Source: Acidobacteriota bacterium (lineage in GTDB: Bacteria; Acidobacteriota; Terriglobia; Terriglobales; SCQP01). Taken from it: DNA of 64,000 nucleotides. Every line of letters starts with the position of its first letter. Position 1 is the stretch's first letter. Where the stretch lies: contig JAJYIU010000003.1 in assembly GCA_021789895.1 (NCBI GenBank), positions 1 to 64,000 of the forward strand. The letters are read 5' to 3'. This document shows, in pieces, positions 36,503 to 45,252 of the stretch. The translations under genes and the position numbers were made by a program. The notes under the pieces are model-generated. The model saw only the letters and a program-made list of their open reading frames with translations, made no database searches and was not told where the DNA came from.

Positions 36503-37789
36503 TTAGAGCGTGGCGATCATCAGGATGGTCAGGGCGACGATGGCCACGCTGGTGGTCCAGGCGATGGCGTTGGCCAGGCGCGAGTTGCGATAGGCGCCCA
36601 TGACCGGCTTGCGGTTGATCAGCAGCAGCATGAAGACCAGCACGAAGGGCAGCAGGATGCCGTTGGCCACCTGCGAGAACAGAATCACCTTGATCAGCGG
36701 CAGATGCGGCAGCAGCACCACGCCCGCGCCGAAGCCGATCAGGCAGGTATAGAGCCAGTAAAACGCGGGGGCTTCGCTGAAACGCTTGTTGACGCCCGAT
36801 TCCAGTCCCAGCCCCTCGCAGATGTTATAGGAAGTGGCGAGCGGCAGGATGGCGGCGGACAGCACGGCGGCGTTGACCAGCCCCAGGGCGAATAGCAGCG
36901 AAGCGTAATGGCCGGCCAACGGCTTGAGCGCCAGCGCCGCCTGGGCGGCGTCGGTGATGTTATGGATGCCGGCGGGATGAAGCGTGGCGGCGCAGGCGGC
37001 GACGATGAAAAACGCCACCACGTCGGTGATGATGCAGCCGATAATCACGTCCCAGCGCGAAATCGCGTATTCCCTCTTGCCAATTCCTTTTTCAACCACC
37101 GAGGCCTGCAGATAGAACTGCATCCAGGGAGTGATGGTGGTGCCGATCAGGCCGAGCACGACCAGGTAGTAATCGCTGCCGCGGTGCAGCACCGCCGGCA
37201 CCAGCGTGTCGTGCAGCGACTGCGACCAGTGCGGATGCGCCAGAAAGGCCGAGACCGGGTAGGCGATATAGACTAGCGAGAAGATGATCAGCAGGCGCTC
37301 GAGCGGGCGGTAGGTGCCGCGCACCACCACGGCCCAGATGATGAGCGCGCCCAGCGGCACGGCCACGAACTTGGACACGCCAAAAATGCCCATGCCCGAG
37401 GCCATGCCGGCGAATTCGGCGACGATGTTGGCGAAATCGGCGAGGCCGAGCACCAGCATGGCGAAAAACGTCCAACGGAAGCCGAACTCCTCGCGGATCA
37501 GGTCGCTCAACCCCTTGCCGGTCACCGCGCCCATGCGGGCCGCCATCTCCTGCACCACGATCAGCGCGATCGTGGTCGGCACCAGCGTCCACAGCAGCAC
37601 GTAGCCGAACTTCGCGCCCGCCTGCGAATAGGTCAGGATGCCGCCGGGATCGTTATCCACGTTGGCGGTGATGAAGCCGGGGCCGAAGATGGCGAAAAAA
37701 GCGAGCAGGCGGAAGCGCCAGCTCCGCCAGAAACCGGCGCGGCGCGAGCGGCGTTGCGCCGCGGCCGCGGAGGAGGGCGCGCGCGCCAT
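36503..37789 (-). CDS. NRAMP-family divalent metal transporter with altered metal site
   Basis: A 428-residue protein with 11-12 TM helices. TM1 carries NVDNDPGGILTYSQAG where classical NRAMP has DPGN. TM6 carries GTTITPWMQFYLQAS where classical members have a methionine in an AxxMPH motif. The changed residues suggest altered metal choice, possibly Mg2+ or another hard ion rather than Mn2+/Fe2+, but no experiment supports this here. ATG 37789 overlaps the stop of an upstream small ORF as TGATG and has its own GGAGGAGG site. The 139 bases upstream of the PQQ-propeller start and after this gene are unremarkable. Confidence 0.88.
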   Translation of the reverse strand: MARAPSSAAAAQRRSRRAGFWRSWRFRLLAFFAIFGPGFITANVDNDPGGILTYSQAGAKFGYVLLWTLVPTTIALIVVQEMAARMGAVTGKGLSDLIREEFGFRWTFFAMLVLGLADFANIVAEFAGMASGMGIFGVSKFVAVPLGALIIWAVVVRGTYRPLERLLIIFSLVYIAYPVSAFLAHPHWSQSLHDTLVPAVLHRGSDYYLVVLGLIGTTITPWMQFYLQASVVEKGIGKREYAISRWDVIIGCIITDVVAFFIVAACAATLHPAGIHNITDAAQAALALKPLAGHYASLLFALGLVNAAVLSAAILPLATSYNICEGLGLESGVNKRFSEAPAFYWLYTCLIGFGAGVVLLPHLPLIKVILFSQVANGILLPFVLVFMLLLINRKPVMGAYRNSRLANAIAWTTSVAIVALTILMIATL

Positions 37790-38165: not shown

Positions 38166-40208
38166 TTACTTGTCGGCGCCGACCAGTTCGGTTTCGCGCT
38201 CGGCGGGCTGGCCGATGTTGACCAGGGCGTCGCGCCGGACGGCGCCCTGGCCGAGCTGCTGCTTCAGCAACTGCTCGCGCATCAGCTTGCGCATCGCCTT
38301 TTCTTCTTCGAAGGCGTTTTCCGGTGCTTCGCTGTGCTGGCGCACGCGGGCGGCGTCCGCCGCGTCGATCTTCAGCGAATGCTCGAAGCTCTCCATCGCC
38401 ACCGGCGCGCCGGAGGCGTAAACCCGGTGCTTGCCGTTCTGCTTGTTCCACTCCATCACCGAGGCGTTCTTGTGCATCGCCTCGATGATGTTGCGCCAGC
38501 CCACGCCGGTGTTGTAGGCGCAGAAGGAGATCTCGCCTTCCTGCGTGCCGTAGGGGATGATGCACATCTCGGTGCGGCGGAAGTCGTAATTGAACAGGTC
38601 CTGGAACCACATGCCGGCGATGAAGAGGAAGTTCCAGGGGTCCTCGCGCCGCTTGCGGATATCGGCCAGGGTGCGTTCCGGCCCCACCTTGCCGTAGTCC
38701 TTGCCGCTGACGCCCAGGGTCTTGTCGAACTTCTGCCACAGCGCCTTCAGCGTGAGGCTGGGCGGGGCGGCGAGCGGGCGGAAGTTTTTCAGCAGCGCCA
38801 GCCCCATGCTTACCGCCGACAGCTTCTTGCCGCGGCCGGCGTCGGTCACTTTCTGCATGTCGCGGATGAGCGCGGGAATGTTGATGAACTGCGGCACCGG
38901 CGCCATTTCCTTGGTGTGCTTGTGCACCATCATCGCCGTGCCCACGCCGCAGTTGGGATGGCAGCCGCAGCTCATCTGCCCCCACTGCGCGTTGGGGCCG
39001 TGCACCAGGTCGGCAAAGTCGGCGAAGGCGCCCATGATCGAGATGGGGAACCAGTCGCGCGTCGGCTCGGTGTAGCCGGTCTGCTTTTTCACGTCCAGCG
39101 CCATGTGCGAGAGGGTGTAGCGCTGGCGCTTGCGCCGGTCTTCGGTGATGTCTTCGTCGCGGCCGGTGAAGGAAACCGGCTGGAAGCTGACAAACGAGAT
39201 CTTGCCCGGGTTCTCGGTGGCGAATTTGACGATCGGGCCCACCTGGTCGTTGGTGATGCCGTTGACCAGCGTCGCCACCAGCACGATTTCGATGCCCGCC
39301 TCGTGCATGTTCTCGATGGCGCGCAGCTTGATGTCGAACAGGTTGCCGATCTTGCGGTGGCCGTTGGCGTCGTTGCCGATGCCGTCAAACTGCAGGTAGG
39401 CGTAGCGCAACCCCGCCTCCGCCGCCTTGCGGCAGAAGGCTTTGCTCTTGGCGAATTCGATGCCGTTGGTGGCGCACTGCACGCTGTTGTAGCCCACTTC
39501 GCGGGCGTAGCGGATGGCGTCGAAGAAGTGCGGCGACATGGTCGGCTCGCCGCCGGAAAACTGGATGGACATCTGCCGCCGCGGCTTGATCTGGATGGCG
39601 TTGTCGAGAATTTCCTTGATCTCGTCGAAGCTGAGCTCGTGGACGAAGCCGACCTGGTTGGCGTCCATGAAGCAGGGGTCGCACATCATGTTGCAGCGGT
39701 TGGTCAGGTCCACCGTCAGCACCGCGCCGCGGCCGTGCTTGATCGAGCTGGAGCCGTGGTTGTGCAGCCCGGTGTCGTTGTGCGCCGGCAGGTCGCGCCC
39801 GGGGAACATCGCCTCGATGTGCTCCAGAAAGCGCTTGTCCACCGCCATCATGTCTTCAAAGCGCCCGTGCCGCGGGCATTCCTTGGTCATCCAGATCTGG
39901 CCGTCGCGCTCGATGATGTCGGCCTTGATCTCGCCCAGATGGGCGGTGATCAGCTCGCGGTAATCGCGCTCGCCGGAAAGAATCTGCTTGCGCGCTTGCT
40001 TGACGCACTCCGGGCAGAGCGAGTCGGTCTGGCGCGGCCAGCCCAGCTTGGGCTTGGTTTTCTGCCACGATTTTTGCAGCGGCTTGTCCGACCAGGCGGG
40101 CGTGAAGGGTTTGCCGGGATGAAACTGGTTGAAAAATTGCAGCGTATTGAAGGCGGCTCCCGCCAGCTTGGTCAGTCCAAACTCGACATATTTGATCGGT
40201 CGTTGCAT
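38166..40208 (-). CDS. Radical SAM enzyme of the COG1964 type, Tes/MSS-like (candidate membrane-spanning lipid synthase)
   Basis: A 680-residue protein, ATG 40208. The N-terminal module has SLCPECVKQA and TKECPRHGRF (~65-110), the extra-cysteine region of COG1964 enzymes. The radical SAM core has CNMMCDPCF (CxxxCxxC, ~173-181), QFSGGEPTMSP and LVATLVNGITNDQ. A second cysteine cluster CGCHPNCGVG lies at ~414. The C-terminus is a charged helical tail (FEEEKAMRKLMREQLLKQQ). The same family includes archaeal tetraether synthase (Tes), MJ0619-type methyltransferases and bacterial enzymes joining lipid tails to membrane-spanning diabolic acids, known from acidobacteria. The function here is inferred; a methyltransferase role is the main alternative. 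A terminator follows. Confidence 0.8.
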   Translation of the reverse strand: MQRPIKYVEFGLTKLAGAAFNTLQFFNQFHPGKPFTPAWSDKPLQKSWQKTKPKLGWPRQTDSLCPECVKQARKQILSGERDYRELITAHLGEIKADIIERDGQIWMTKECPRHGRFEDMMAVDKRFLEHIEAMFPGRDLPAHNDTGLHNHGSSSIKHGRGAVLTVDLTNRCNMMCDPCFMDANQVGFVHELSFDEIKEILDNAIQIKPRRQMSIQFSGGEPTMSPHFFDAIRYAREVGYNSVQCATNGIEFAKSKAFCRKAAEAGLRYAYLQFDGIGNDANGHRKIGNLFDIKLRAIENMHEAGIEIVLVATLVNGITNDQVGPIVKFATENPGKISFVSFQPVSFTGRDEDITEDRRKRQRYTLSHMALDVKKQTGYTEPTRDWFPISIMGAFADFADLVHGPNAQWGQMSCGCHPNCGVGTAMMVHKHTKEMAPVPQFINIPALIRDMQKVTDAGRGKKLSAVSMGLALLKNFRPLAAPPSLTLKALWQKFDKTLGVSGKDYGKVGPERTLADIRKRREDPWNFLFIAGMWFQDLFNYDFRRTEMCIIPYGTQEGEISFCAYNTGVGWRNIIEAMHKNASVMEWNKQNGKHRVYASGAPVAMESFEHSLKIDAADAARVRQHSEAPENAFEEEKAMRKLMREQLLKQQLGQGAVRRDALVNIGQPAERETELVGADK

Positions 40209-40403
40209 GCGCGGCTCGCTTTCCGGCGCGCGGAAAAGACCCGCCGCGCCTTCCGCGTATCTTCACCCGGCCGCTGGGTAGCGACAATGCAATTGCGCCG
40301 AATGGCGGCAAATGGCCCCTCAGAGGCCCAAACCCCGGCCCGAACGGGGGCGTGGAAAGTAATCCCTTAAGGATCAGAAGCTTAGCTAAGGCCGGCTTGC
40401 GGG

Positions 40404-41618
40404 TCAGGAAGTCGTTTCCAGCCGGCTCCACAGCCGCTGCCACAGTCCGGTTTGCTCCTGGCGGCGGCGCAGGCGGCGGTGCGCCGCCAGCGCGCCGCCG
40501 AGCAGGAAGGCGTATTCGGGGGCGGCAAAGGCGCCGGGCATGCCCTCGAGCAGGGGCGGAATGCCCAGCCGCACCGGCAGCCGCAGTTGCTGCTCGACCA
40601 ACTCCGCCAACCCGCCCAGCACCGCCCCGCCGCCGGCTAGCACCACGCCCGCCCCCAGCCGGTGCAGCCAGCCGCTGCGCCGCAAATCCTCTTCGATCAG
40701 GTGAATCAGCTCTTCCGCGCGCTCGCGCAGATGATCGCAGAACTCGCGGTGGCGAATCATGCGGATGGGGCGGTCGCCGATGCCGGGAGCTTCGATTTCA
40801 GCGCGTTCGCTCATGCCCGCGGTCAGCACCTGGCCGAAGCTGTGCTTCATGCCCTCGGCCGCGGGCTGCGGGGTGTTGAATGCGATCGCGACGTCGCGGC
40901 TGAAGTTGTCGCCGCCGACGCCGATGACGCTGGCATGCTGCACCCCGCCCTGGGCAGCTACCAGCACACCGGTGCAGCCGGCGCCGATTTCCACCAGCGC
41001 CACGCCCTGCTCGCGCTCTTCCGCCTGCAGCAGCGCATCGGCGGCGGCCAGCGGCGTAAACAGCAGCTCCAGCACTTTCAAACCGGCCATGTTGGCGGCC
41101 GAGACCCGGTTCTGGATCGGGCCGGAGGCGCCGCTGAACAACAGCACCCGCGCTTCCAGGCGCGAGGCGACCAGGCCGGCCGGTTCGCGCACGCCCGCCT
41201 GGCGGTCGAGGATGTATTCAAGCGGACGTATGTGCAGCAGCTCGTAACCCTCCGGCAACTCCACCTGGCGCGCCAGCTCGAGCACCGCGTGCACGTCCGC
41301 CGGACTGATTTCGCGGCTGCGCGCCGCCAGGCTGGTGGCCGCCTGGCTTTGCAGGCAGCGCATGTGCGGCCCGGTGAGGCTCAGCGTCACTTCCTCGATG
41401 GGCAGGCCGGCTTGCCGTTCCGCCGCTTCTACCGCCAGCGCGATGCCCTGGCTGGCGGCTTCGAGGTTGACCACGGCGCCTTTTTGCATGCCTTGCGAAG
41501 GTTGCGCCGCATAGCCCAGATACTGCAGACGGCCGTCTTCCACCCCGGCCGCCAGCACGCGGGTCCGCGCGGTGCCGAGATCGAGAACGCAGAGTACGGG
41601 TTGTCGTTTGCGCGCCAT
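40404..41618 (-). CDS. ftsA: Cell division protein FtsA
   Basis: A 404-residue actin-fold ATPase; ATG 41618 shares one base with the ftsQ stop (TGATG). Visible parts: phosphate-1 loop LCVLDLGTARTRVLA, SHS2/1C domain (EVTLSLTGPHMRCLQS), phosphate-2 VALVEIGAGCTGVLVA, adenosine motif LAGGGAVLGGLAELVEQQL, and a C-terminal amphipathic helix (GLWQRLWSRLE) that anchors FtsA to the membrane. It tethers FtsZ and recruits the divisome. The expected ftsZ does not follow: the next minus-strand gene, 195 bases on, is the radical SAM gene. Confidence 0.93.
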   Translation of the reverse strand: MARKRQPVLCVLDLGTARTRVLAAGVEDGRLQYLGYAAQPSQGMQKGAVVNLEAASQGIALAVEAAERQAGLPIEEVTLSLTGPHMRCLQSQAATSLAARSREISPADVHAVLELARQVELPEGYELLHIRPLEYILDRQAGVREPAGLVASRLEARVLLFSGASGPIQNRVSAANMAGLKVLELLFTPLAAADALLQAEEREQGVALVEIGAGCTGVLVAAQGGVQHASVIGVGGDNFSRDVAIAFNTPQPAAEGMKHSFGQVLTAGMSERAEIEAPGIGDRPIRMIRHREFCDHLRERAEELIHLIEEDLRRSGWLHRLGAGVVLAGGGAVLGGLAELVEQQLRLPVRLGIPPLLEGMPGAFAAPEYAFLLGGALAAHRRLRRRQEQTGLWQRLWSRLETTS

Positions 41619-42544
41619 CAACGGGGCCGATCGGGGGGCCGCGCGGTGGTGACCGCGCCGGCGCCGGTGTTCAGGATCGCTTCGCCATCGTAGCGCAGGT
41701 CCACCGCGCGCAGCCCGGGATACTGCGCCAGCCAGGATTGAATATGCTGGCGATAGAGCTGATAGCGGAGCTGGAAATGACGGTCGCCGAGCTGCAGCAG
41801 CAAGGCGCGGCCGCCGGCGCCCGCGGGCGCGGCCAGCGCGCGAACGTCATTCGGGTCGCTGAGATCGATTTCGGCGAAATCGCGCAGGCGGTGCGCGCCG
41901 CCGGCGTCCAGCGCCTGGCGCAGCCGGAGAAACTGCGTCATTTGCTCGCGCCGTTGTTGCAGCAGGGCGGCGGGCGCGGCGTTGGCATCGAGCGCCAGGC
42001 CGGTGAGCATCGCGCCTTGAAAGTGCAGCCCCGCCACCCGCGGCAGCAGGGTGCCATCGGCGGCAATCAAAGCCAGGCTCGTCCCCTGGCGGGCAAAGGC
42101 CACCGGCCGGCGTTCGGCCACCTGCACCGCCAGGCGGTTGGGCCAGAGCCGCATCACCGCCGCCTGGGCGATCCAGGGCATGCGCTCGAGCGCCTGGCGG
42201 CGGCGCGCCAGCGGGATGGCCAGCAGATTGCGCCCCAGATCGGCGGCGAAAACCTGGCGCACCGCCTCGGGCGAGGTTTCGCGCGTGCCGCTGACCTGAA
42301 TTTGCTCCAGGCTGGCCAGCACGAAACTGGGGCTGGTGAGCAGCCAATGGCGCAGCCCCCCGCCGATGCCGGCCAGCGCCAACGCCCCCAGCCCGCTCCA
42401 TAAGAGCGGGCGGAAATGGCGCCGCCACCAGGCCTGGCGCACCGGCACCGGGCGCCGGCGGCGGCGAAACGAGCTTTCCGGCTCGTTGCCGGCCGGTTCG
42501 ATTTCCGGCGGGCCGGGCGGATTGTCTGGGTCGGAGCGTCCCAT
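41618..42544 (-). CDS. ftsQ: Cell division protein FtsQ
   Basis: A 308-residue protein with a basic cytoplasmic N-terminus (ESSFRRRRRPVPVRQAWW), one TM helix (~50-68), a POTRA domain (LASLEQIQVSGTRETSPEAV) and the FtsQ beta domain (NRLAVQVAERRPVAFARQG, PGLRAVDLRYDGEAILN). It links early cytoplasmic and late periplasmic divisome proteins. It lies 16 bases after murC. No murB or ddl lies between them, unlike many dcw clusters. Confidence 0.9.
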   Translation of the reverse strand: MGRSDPDNPPGPPEIEPAGNEPESSFRRRRRPVPVRQAWWRRHFRPLLWSGLGALALAGIGGGLRHWLLTSPSFVLASLEQIQVSGTRETSPEAVRQVFAADLGRNLLAIPLARRRQALERMPWIAQAAVMRLWPNRLAVQVAERRPVAFARQGTSLALIAADGTLLPRVAGLHFQGAMLTGLALDANAAPAALLQQRREQMTQFLRLRQALDAGGAHRLRDFAEIDLSDPNDVRALAAPAGAGGRALLLQLGDRHFQLRYQLYRQHIQSWLAQYPGLRAVDLRYDGEAILNTGAGAVTTARPPDRPR

Positions 42545-42560
42545 GCGAACAAGACCACGG

Positions 42561-43997
42561 CTAGGCCGGCTGGGCGGTCATCGAGCGGGCAGACTGCAAG
42601 GCGGCCAGTATTTTGTCGCCCAAGGCGGAGACGTTGCCCGCGCCCTGGGTCAGAATCACATCGCCCGCCTGCGCCGCCTGCGCGATCCGCAGAATCGCTT
42701 CCTCCACCTCGGGTACGTATTCGACCGGCGCGCCGGCGGCCCGCAGCCGTTCCACCAGGCTGCGGGAGTCCACTCCGGGAATGGGCTCTTCGCCGGCGGC
42801 ATAAATGTCGAGCAGGTAGCCCCGGTCCAGGCCGCGCAGCGCGGCGGCGAATTCATCCTGCAGATGATACGTGCGGGTGTAGCGATGCGGCTGGAAGAGC
42901 ATCAGCACGCGGTGGTAGCCGCGCTGGCGCGCGGCGGCGATGGTGGCGGCGATTTCGGTGGGATGATGCCCGTAATCGTCCACCACGGCCACGCCGCCGG
43001 CTTCGCCTTTGAGTTGAAAGCGCCGGTCCACGCCGCGAAATTCCGCCAGCGAGCCGCGCAGCACTTCGAGATCGCGCCCGAGCATGAGCCCGACTGTCAC
43101 AGCGGCGGCGGCGTTGAGCACATTATGCCGGCCGGGCACGGCCAGCACGAAGTCGCCCAGGCCGCGGCTGGGCAGGACATTGCGGCCGAGGGCGGCGGCG
43201 GCGCTTTCGCTCAACTCCAGTTGAAAAACCGTCTGGCGCGGCTCGAGCCGCACTTGCAAAATCCGGATGCCGGCTTCCGGATGCTCGCCGTAGCTCAACA
43301 CCGGGCGCTTCAGGCGGGGAAGAATCGCCCGCGCCGCCGCATCTTCGATGCAGATGACCACGCCGCCGTAGAAGGGCACGCGGTTGGCGAACTCTACAAA
43401 CGCCTGCTGGATGTCCTCCAGATCGGCATAACAGTCAAGGTGCTCGCGGTCGAGATTGGTGATCACCGCGATAATCGGCGACAGCTTGAGAAAGGAGCGG
43501 TCGCTTTCGTCCGCTTCCGCCACCAGGTATTCGGAGGCGCCCAGGCGGGCGTTGGAGCCGATGGTATCCAGCCGCCCTCCGACCACCACCGTGGGATCGA
43601 GCTTGGCCGCTGCCAGCAGCGTGGCGATCATCGAGGTGGTGGTGGTTTTGCCGTGCATGCCGGCCACCGCGATGCCGAATTTCAGGCGCATCAGCTCGGC
43701 CAGCATTTCCGCTCTGGGGATGACGGGGATGTGGCGCTCGATTGCGGCCGCCACTTCGGGATTGCGGGTCGAGACTGCGCTGGAGACCACCACCACGCCG
43801 GCATCGCCGAGGTGGCGGGCATCATGGCCGATGTCAATGCGCGCGCCCAGCGCCGCCAGCCGCTCCAGCACCGGCGAGCCGCGCAGGTCGGAGCCGGAGA
43901 CCGCCCAACCCAACCGCAACAGCACTTCGGCAATGCCGCTCATGCCGATGCCGCCGATGCCGACGAAGTGGACTTTGAGTGTTTTGGCCAGCAGCAT
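42561..43997 (-). CDS. murC: UDP-N-acetylmuramate-L-alanine ligase
   Basis: A 478-residue cytoplasmic ligase that adds L-alanine to UDP-MurNAc with ATP. Motifs: UDP-binding VHFVGIGGIGMSGIAEVL, P-loop AVAGMHGKTTTTSM (~110), NLDREHLDCY, SYGEHPEAGIR and the C-terminal FDDYGHHPTEI-type segment (VVDDYGHHPTE, ~335). The length is normal. ATG 43997 has only a weak ribosome site; 112 bases without clear signals separate it from murG. Confidence 0.95.
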   Translation of the reverse strand: MLLAKTLKVHFVGIGGIGMSGIAEVLLRLGWAVSGSDLRGSPVLERLAALGARIDIGHDARHLGDAGVVVVSSAVSTRNPEVAAAIERHIPVIPRAEMLAELMRLKFGIAVAGMHGKTTTTSMIATLLAAAKLDPTVVVGGRLDTIGSNARLGASEYLVAEADESDRSFLKLSPIIAVITNLDREHLDCYADLEDIQQAFVEFANRVPFYGGVVICIEDAAARAILPRLKRPVLSYGEHPEAGIRILQVRLEPRQTVFQLELSESAAAALGRNVLPSRGLGDFVLAVPGRHNVLNAAAAVTVGLMLGRDLEVLRGSLAEFRGVDRRFQLKGEAGGVAVVDDYGHHPTEIAATIAAARQRGYHRVLMLFQPHRYTRTYHLQDEFAAALRGLDRGYLLDIYAAGEEPIPGVDSRSLVERLRAAGAPVEYVPEVEEAILRIAQAAQAGDVILTQGAGNVSALGDKILAALQSARSMTAQPA

Positions 43998-44109
43998 GCC
44001 GTTTTTTCCGTGTTGATTCCACAGTAACTGAATCCGCGCGGCAACTCACCCGGAAAATGCGGCCGGGCGGCGGCCAGGTTGATGCCGCGGGAACCCGCCC
44101 GGACTCAAT

Positions 44110-45252
44110 TCACTGCGGCCGGGCGGCGGCCAGCACCAGGTCGGCAATCCGGCGGGTGGCGTCGGGGTGAGCGAGCGAGCGCAGGACGGCGCTCATCGCG
44201 GTGCGGCGTTCGGGGTGGGCGTGCAGTTCCAGCAACTGCGTTTCCAGCGCTTGCGGGGTGAGTTGGTCCTGTGGCAGGATTTGGGCCGCGCCGGCCTGGG
44301 CGAGAGCCCGGGCGTTATGCAACTGATGCTGGTCGGCGGCGGCGGGGAAGGGGATGAGCACTGCCGGCCGGCCCAGCGCCGCCAGTTCGGCCAGCGTGCC
44401 GGCGCCGCTGCGGCAGACCACGATTTCGGCGCGCTGCATGGCCTCGGCCATGCGCTCGATGAAGGGAACCGCGCGCAGATCGAGTCCGCCGCGACGATAA
44501 TGCAGCCCGCCGTCTTCCGCCTGGCAGCCGCCGGGCAGCCGCGCATAAGCCTCGCGCATGGCGTCCCACTCGCGCGCGCCGGTCTGGTGCAGAATTTCGC
44601 GCGGCGCGGGCGAATCGCCCCAGAGCGCGGCCAGGCCCAGCACGGCATAGTTGATCGCGCGGGCGCCCTGGCCGCCGCCGAACGAGAGCAGGCGGAGCGG
44701 CGCATCCGCGGCGGCGGCTGCGGGCGGCGCGGGGGCCAGAAATTCCGCGCGGACTGGCAGCCCGGTCAGCACGCTGCGCGGAAAATACGGCGCGGCTTCG
44801 GCAAATGCCACCGCAGTGGAGCGCGCCCAGCCGCCGGCCAGCCGGTTGGCCAGGCCGGGGCGGGTATTGATTTCCAGCAGCACCAGCGGCACGCGGCGCC
44901 AGCGCGCCGCGGCCAGCATCGGGCCGGAGGCATAGCCGCCGATGCCGAGCACGGCGGCGGCGCGGCTGGATTCCAGCAGTTGCTTCGATTGCAGCACGGC
45001 GCGCGGCAGGCTGGCCAGCGTCTCCGCCTGCCGTCTCCAGCCCACGTTTTTCAGCCCCCCAACCTCGACTGTGACCAGTTCGAAGCCGGCAGCGGGCACC
45101 AGGCGGGTTTCCAGGCCGCGTTCGGTGCCGGCGAAGATGATCCGGCCGACGCCGCGCGCGCGCAGCTCATGAGCCACCGCCAGGCCGGGCATCAGGTGCC
45201 CGCCGGTGCCGCCGCCGGCAATGACGAGACAGGCGGGAAGCCCGGCGTTCAC
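44110..45252 (-). CDS. murG: UDP-GlcNAc:lipid I N-acetylglucosaminyltransferase
   Basis: A 380-residue GT28 enzyme that makes lipid II at the cytoplasmic membrane. Start GTG 45252 overlaps the NUDIX stop as GTGA. Motifs: GGGTGGHLMPGLAVAHEL (~13), LGIGGYASGPML, LEINTRPGLANR (family ExN segment), LLSFGGGQGARAIN, and the acceptor/donor region VVCRSGAGTLAELAALGRPAVLIPFP with AADQHQ. The length is typical. Confidence 0.95.
   Translation of the reverse strand: MNAGLPACLVIAGGGTGGHLMPGLAVAHELRARGVGRIIFAGTERGLETRLVPAAGFELVTVEVGGLKNVGWRRQAETLASLPRAVLQSKQLLESSRAAAVLGIGGYASGPMLAAARWRRVPLVLLEINTRPGLANRLAGGWARSTAVAFAEAAPYFPRSVLTGLPVRAEFLAPAPPAAAAADAPLRLLSFGGGQGARAINYAVLGLAALWGDSPAPREILHQTGAREWDAMREAYARLPGGCQAEDGGLHYRRGGLDLRAVPFIERMAEAMQRAEIVVCRSGAGTLAELAALGRPAVLIPFPAAADQHQLHNARALAQAGAAQILPQDQLTPQALETQLLELHAHPERRTAMSAVLRSLAHPDATRRIADLVLAAARPQ

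Follow-up and report, generated by a model that had tools for sequence, protein, structure and literature searches.

The closest described system to the gene treated here is the archaeal tetraether lipid synthase Tes (also GDGT-MAS), represented by MJ0619 of Methanocaldococcus jannaschii and by Saci_0703. MJ0619 has a rubredoxin-like site formed by C9, C12, C33 and H36, an N-terminal cluster with the ligands C73, C77, C80 and a histidine, and a C-terminal cluster with a labile Met439, and Tyr459 is fully conserved (PMC9433317). During catalysis a carbon of the substrate becomes attached to a sulphur in an [Fe4S4] cluster, and each C-C bond costs two SAM; in addition, crystals of Tes held ester-linked phosphatidic acid of E. 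coli (PMC9433317). Among bacteria, Zeng et al. (2022) counted 456 Tes homologues and proposed them for the synthesis of branched GDGTs (brGDGTs), with identities of 40-42 % for Koribacter and Solibacter and of 32 % for the single homologue of Edaphobacter aggregans, a producer (PMC8941075). Solibacter possesses two Tes homologues; it produces branched GDGTs, and iso-diabolic acid was not detectable in it (PMC10087280). The activity of the bacterial Tes homologues was experimentally unconfirmed as of 2025 (PMC11868695).

The window analysed here is a stretch of 64,000 nucleotides from an Acidobacteriota bacterium, and a preliminary description made from its letters had placed a candidate membrane-spanning lipid synthase at positions 38166-40208. 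These coordinates are exact and the strand is minus: an intact gene runs from an ATG at 40208 to a stop at 38166 and encodes a protein of 680 aa (P0002), with no internal stop codon in this frame. Pfam finds in it a radical SAM domain (E 6.5e-20) and the HMPTM N-terminal zinc ribbon PF23545 (E 1.6e-15). The top NCBIfam model is tetraether lipid synthase Tes (NF045702), at 329.9 bits and below the equivalog cut-off of 450 bits, so P0002 is not a member of Tes by score; the TrsS model NF045646 also matches (218 bits, E 1.7e-64), under its cut-off of 490. The closest solved relative by sequence, and the sole close structure, is MJ0619 (7TOL, E 1.8e-63; 32 % identity). The gene is single-copy in its genome, has orthologues 80-91 % identical in three relatives and finds homologues in 168 of the 297 genomes searched across the phylum. 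By its domain matches, close orthologues and phylum-wide matches it is a real gene and not a chance open reading frame.

For comparison of the metal sites, the residues of MJ0619 were rebuilt from a printed alignment, the numbering of which agrees with every residue stated for the enzyme (PMC9433317). The preliminary description had given the protein the cysteine layout of Tes, and much of this is borne out: C65-P-E-C68, C111-P-R-H114-G and C172-x3-C176-x2-C179 are present, as are the second cysteine cluster (C414/C416/C420 plus C549 and C563) and the extended tail, which reaches 114 residues past FCAYN. The rubredoxin-like, radical SAM and C-terminal sites stand; P0002 departs from Tes in lacking the N-terminal [4Fe-4S] motif and in scoring 330 bits against 450. 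It had been overlooked that the third Tes cysteine motif, CPxxCGxCxxH of the N-terminal cluster, is missing from P0002: in the alignment GCPYDCGLCPNH of MJ0619 lies opposite TGLHNHGSSSIK of P0002, the ligands are gone, and an invariant H-x-HG...GRG stretch at residues 145-161 replaces them. Judged by its sequence, P0002 is not a Tes sensu stricto, because two tested features, the N-terminal cluster ligands and the NF045702 cut-off, are lacking. The cysteine ligands of the C-terminal cluster of MJ0619 are taken to be C338, C455 and C470, since these are the conserved cysteines of that domain. The features of the locus are collected in Table 1.

Table 1. Features of P0002 and its flanking genes in the window, with the corresponding residues of MJ0619.
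Feature	Residues	Positions	Strand	Basis or remark
Nramp-type metal transporter gene, downstream flank of slot		36503..37789	-	Pfam; synteny
P0002, A-type Tes-like radical SAM protein, 680 aa		38166..40208	-	candidate membrane-spanning lipid (iso-diabolic acid-type) synthase
Extended C-terminal tail	567-680	38169..38510	-	helical to about 657, disordered beyond
C-terminal auxiliary cluster region	533-566	38511..38612	-	M533 (labile Met439), C549 (C455), Y553 (Tyr459), C563 (C470)
CGCHPNC	414-420	38949..38969	-	C420 = C338
QPVSFTGR	343-350	39159..39182	-	SAM-adenosine/loop-closing; Q343, S346, R350 = Q268, S271, R275
Radical SAM cluster motif CX3CX2C (CNMMCDPC)	172-179	39672..39695	-	C172, C176, C179 = C98, C102, C105
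Site of Tes N-terminal [4Fe-4S] cluster, DTGLHNHGSSSIKHGRG	145-161	39726..39776	-	four ligands all missing
Rubredoxin-like site CX2C-X42-CX2H	65-115	39864..40016	-	C65, C68, C111, H114 = C9, C12, C33, H36
Added N-terminal helix of A-type	4-27	40128..40199	-	model secondary structure; moderately hydrophobic/amphipathic
ftsA, upstream flank of slot		40404..41621	-	Pfam; synteny

An AlphaFold2 model of P0002, built from 24 rows, has a pLDDT of 85.7 and a pTM of 0.86, with disorder limited to residues 658-680. Its top Foldseek matches are 7TOM and 7TOL (E about 1e-35), and VIA-align superposes it on 7TOM with Z 43.1 and an rmsd of 2.6 A over 480 of 498 residues; the next family after Tes is MoaA, at Z 21.1. 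Therefore the match of the predicted fold covers the Tes-specific domains and not the radical SAM core alone. The N-terminal helix has a hydrophobic moment of up to 0.44, is not present in MJ0619 or in the B-type proteins defined below, and is possibly a membrane-surface anchor.

Homologues were collected from 14 genomes of the window's family (f1), 297 genomes of the phylum, selected genomes, 40 further stretches and 80 named contigs, and gave 184 distinct proteins, 152 of which are P0002-like and are called A-type, whereas 24 belong to a set with the canonical motifs, called B-type. The A-type clade, which is acidobacterial, is defined here by the lack of the N-terminal cluster motif and by LTNRCNMMC, CxCHPxC, MWFQD, FCAYN and GRGxVLT; these features occur in 149-152 of the 152 distinct A-type sequences, P0002 included, and the full CxCHPxC motif is found in all but one of the 152 A-type sequences (151) and in none of the 24 B-type sequences. 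In the common alignment (151 A-type and 22 B-type rows) the N-terminal [4Fe-4S] ligands are absent from every A-type row and kept in all 22 acidobacterial B-type rows. The radical SAM cysteines, and likewise the C-terminal residues equivalent to C420, C549, C563, M533 and Y553 of P0002, are kept in 151/151 A-type rows, and the residues of the rubredoxin-like, radical SAM and C-terminal sites, with the Met439 and Tyr459 equivalents, in 149-151 of them. The spacing in the rubredoxin site is 42 in A-type versus 20 in Tes, a W takes the place of H beside the labile Met in A-type, and the tail after FCAYN has a median of 114 residues in A-type versus 35 in B-type. Identity to MJ0619 is 28-35 % for A-type and 38-48 % for B-type, and seven other proteins scanned with NF045702 gave 314-334 bits (A-type) and 472-619 bits (B-type, cut-off 450). 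On these ranges the Edaphobacter aggregans homologue appears to fit A-type and not B-type, because 32 % lies within the former range and outside the latter, the published query being another archaeal Tes than MJ0619, so that identity ranges are compared across queries.

A quick tree makes A-type monophyletic (100 % SH-aLRT) on a long stem, with B-type proteins from the acidobacterial families f5 and f51 as the nearest branch; the order of depth is tentative because this tree came with long-branch warnings. The f1 A-type gene groups with Blastocatellia and Acidiferrales-type sequences, away from its order-mates of family f2. This pattern suggests that the gene was transferred horizontally or that paralogues were lost differentially. 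Some Acidobacteriota carry A- and B-type together (G048 and G275) or have two A-type copies, so A-type and B-type may act on different substrates. The additional A-type copy, which shares about 50-53 % identity with P0002, forms a clade of its own (L078, L121-L127 and relatives; families f21, f29 and f43) and possibly acts on another chain type. Recoding of an in-frame TAG was considered for the f29 copies and rejected, the TAGs being the genes' own ends, with no stop inside the aligned protein. A separate acidobacterial branch is formed by L087 and L089, Tes-like proteins with CPHDCGLCPDH, and KCCKEFLLPG instead of RCxIHY, that score 311-340 bits against the Tes model. The best 80 loci of the named-genome scan are all acidobacterial except for one contig labelled Gemmatimonadetes (L212, a MAG) and one labelled Betaproteobacteria (L215), both carrying A-type; L212 nests within an acidobacterial subclade in a tree without L215, so misbinning is likely for the two and transfer is possible. 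In the plasmid collection the relatives were all distant, with no more than about 30 % identity, and belonged to haloarchaea, Mycolicibacterium and Persicobacter.

In the window the genes murG, murC, ftsQ, ftsA, the A-type gene and Nramp follow one another, all on the minus strand, and the order murC-ftsQ-ftsA-[A-type]-Nramp of this genome (G000) recurs in G003, G008 and G001 (genera g1, g5 and g2). In genus g6 (G009, G011 and G013), murC-ftsQ-ftsA is followed by a B-type gene in the same orientation and then by Nramp, with gaps of about 0.3 to 5 kb. Thus three genera of f1 have A-type and one has B-type in the same slot; genera g3 and g4 have B-type outside it. MurC and Nramp are 63-78 % identical between A-type and B-type carriers, and a concatenated tree of the slot flanks separates the carriers with support of 100/100. 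The two kinds of gene in the slot share about 36 % identity and have different cofactor sets. No genome among the 14 of f1 has both types, and one of them, A or B, is present in each of the seven whose completeness is 90 % or more. The shared slot argues that both types do one job. Its history would be either an in-situ exchange or a former tandem pair from which different lineages lost different members, and either of these would imply overlapping function. Since B-type proteins pass the Tes equivalog cut-off, the swap is a firmer tie between A-type and Tes function than similarity by itself. After murG-murC-ftsQ-ftsA the usual next gene is ftsZ; in the window this division and cell-wall cluster (38166-45252) closes with the lipid synthase candidate in the usual ftsZ position, and the ftsZ of the genome lies on another contig (G000:C13:128001-128483).

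The neighbourhood yields less. Neither a conserved lipid operon nor recognisable lipid genes were found beside A-type in the window and about 90 loci, where neighbours recur within subgroups only and none recurs in the window. At L159 and eight other loci, the A-type gene has beside it, mostly downstream (78 bp in L159), a gene for a radical SAM/SPASM protein about 550 aa long. This possible partner enzyme stays under every NCBIfam cut-off (its best model is TIGR04545, at 254.6 of 500 bits), and no orthologue of it was found among the genomes of the window's family (best 29-32 %). Among ether-bond genes, the PlsA/Ger-like PF09989 was rejected as a discriminator of the two types, because it is present in 10 of the 14 f1 genomes, in A- and B-type carriers both. 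It was not found in the window's own genome, 95.5 % complete, so the product there may be ester-linked; this is a weak hint because 4.5 % of the genome is possibly missing.

P0002 is probably a synthase of membrane-spanning lipids that acts on bacterial phospholipids in the manner of archaeal Tes, coupling chains tail to tail by a C-C bond into iso-diabolic-type lipids. The preliminary description had read it as such a synthase, a reading strengthened by the whole-length Tes fold (Z 43.1), the conserved catalytic residues and the positional swap against a canonical Tes homologue, although the full Tes layout did not hold. What the analysis shows is the predicted fold, the residue conservation, the clade and this swap. 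The substrate, the product and every chemical step of the proposed cycle are drawn by analogy with MJ0619; the residues that such a cycle would need are present in P0002. Two hydrophobic pockets would be occupied by two phospholipids whose acyl (or alkyl) chains are iso-branched; the radical SAM cluster would cleave SAM, and the 5'-deoxyadenosyl radical would abstract H from the terminal carbon of one chain. This carbon would be held through a C-S bond to the C-terminal [4Fe-4S] cluster (C420, C549, C563; displaceable M533) until a second SAM made a second chain radical, which would couple to the parked chain and give a C30-type dicarboxylic (iso-diabolic) chain across the membrane. An acyl substrate would fit with the phosphatidic acid in the Tes crystals and with the production of iso-diabolic acid by Acidobacteria, which the preliminary description had also mentioned. 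This acid occurs in subdivisions 1, 3, 4 and 6, and two iso-C15 chains are its likely source (PMC13274423). Against the synthase reading, one of the four metallocofactors of Tes is absent, the Tes score is under the cut-off and the neighbours are not recognisable lipid genes.

Alternatively, a Tes-fold enzyme could alter membrane lipids in some other way, for example by an H-shaped cross-link, a mid-chain C-C bond or a methylation, and not by terminal coupling. The chemistry could be changed by the missing N-terminal cluster, by CxCHPxC, which is specific to A-type, and by the W for H beside the labile Met; at least one A-type copy may have another role because some Acidobacteriota have two, and the radical SAM enzymes Gms and Grs also form C-C bonds in membrane lipids (PMC11186832). 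However, Gms and Grs are different families, A-type retains the residues that surround the cluster on which Tes keeps its C-S intermediate, A-type swaps with the canonical Tes-type in one slot, and an A- or B-type gene is present in 7/7 f1 genomes at least 90 % complete, so that we consider this alternative unlikely. We give still less weight to an ordinary maturase of the TrsS type or another COG1964 radical SAM maturase with a non-lipid substrate, in which the likeness to Tes would be one of family level only. The TrsS model does match P0002 and the Tes cut-off is missed, but the TrsS score is far under its own cut-off and under the Tes score, the acidobacterial TrsS-like proteins are a distant separate branch, the full-length fold is predicted to be that of Tes, and A-type exchanges position with a Tes-type gene. 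A pterin (6-hydroxymethylpterin) methyltransferase, suggested by the HMPTM name of the PF23545 match, is barely credible and was rejected: the name is the old annotation of MJ0619, overturned by crystal structure, activity assays and lipid binding (PMC9433317). For the same reason the refutation proposed in the preliminary description, a grouping with MJ0619-type pterin methyltransferases, is void, because MJ0619 itself is a Tes.

A Tes-like synthase thus remains the preferred reading of P0002, and it is likely that the protein works like Tes. Branched GDGTs, built on iso-diabolic acid-like chains, are the basis of a widely used palaeothermometer for soils and lakes, and to our knowledge the chain-coupling enzyme of Acidobacteria is unproven. 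A-type is a strong candidate class for the enzyme behind the membrane-spanning fatty acids of these bacteria, and the locus, as an apparent natural in-situ exchange with a canonical Tes-type enzyme, bears on the purpose of the N-terminal iron-sulphur cluster of Tes. It is an evenly balanced proposition that Acidobacteriota evolved a synthase class of their own from a Tes ancestor, in which the N-terminal [4Fe-4S] cluster was given up and a tail and a helix facing the membrane were gained; if this is true, Csp3-Csp3 coupling would not require that cluster, a point relevant to what the cluster does in Tes.

Compared with the known systems, P0002 shares with Tes/GDGT-MAS (MJ0619, Saci_0703; NF045702; 7TOL/7TOM) the fold, the radical SAM, rubredoxin-like and C-terminal sites, the labile Met, Tyr459 and QPVSFTGR. 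Unlike these enzymes, it is without the N-terminal [4Fe-4S] ligands, has X42 instead of X20, an extra N-terminal helix and a tail of about 114 residues, and its substrate is expected to be an acyl phospholipid and not archaeol. TrsS (seleno)proteins (NF045646) belong to the wider family and have the N-terminal ribbon and the radical SAM domain, but they lie on a separate branch of the tree and P0002 reaches only 218 bits against their cut-off of 490. Gms (GMGT synthase) and GrsA/B (GDGT ring synthases) are alike in forming C-C bonds on membrane lipid tails by radical SAM chemistry; however, Gms has a SPASM domain with two auxiliary clusters and Grs probably the radical SAM cluster only (PMC11186832). 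Mss of Clostridia (Sahonero-Canavesi et al. 2022), as described, is alike in its Tes-like architecture and in the proposed reaction, a tail-to-tail coupling of acyl chains (PMC13274423). Among the bacterial Tes homologues of Zeng et al., P0002 falls by homology within the published kind, although the accessible part of that paper does not split the cluster-lacking A-type from the canonical B-type (38-48 %) (PMC8941075). P0002 is accordingly of a published kind, and the cluster-lacking A-type clade and its exchange with B-type in one chromosomal slot are, as far as the accessible parts of these sources extend, apparently described here for the first time.
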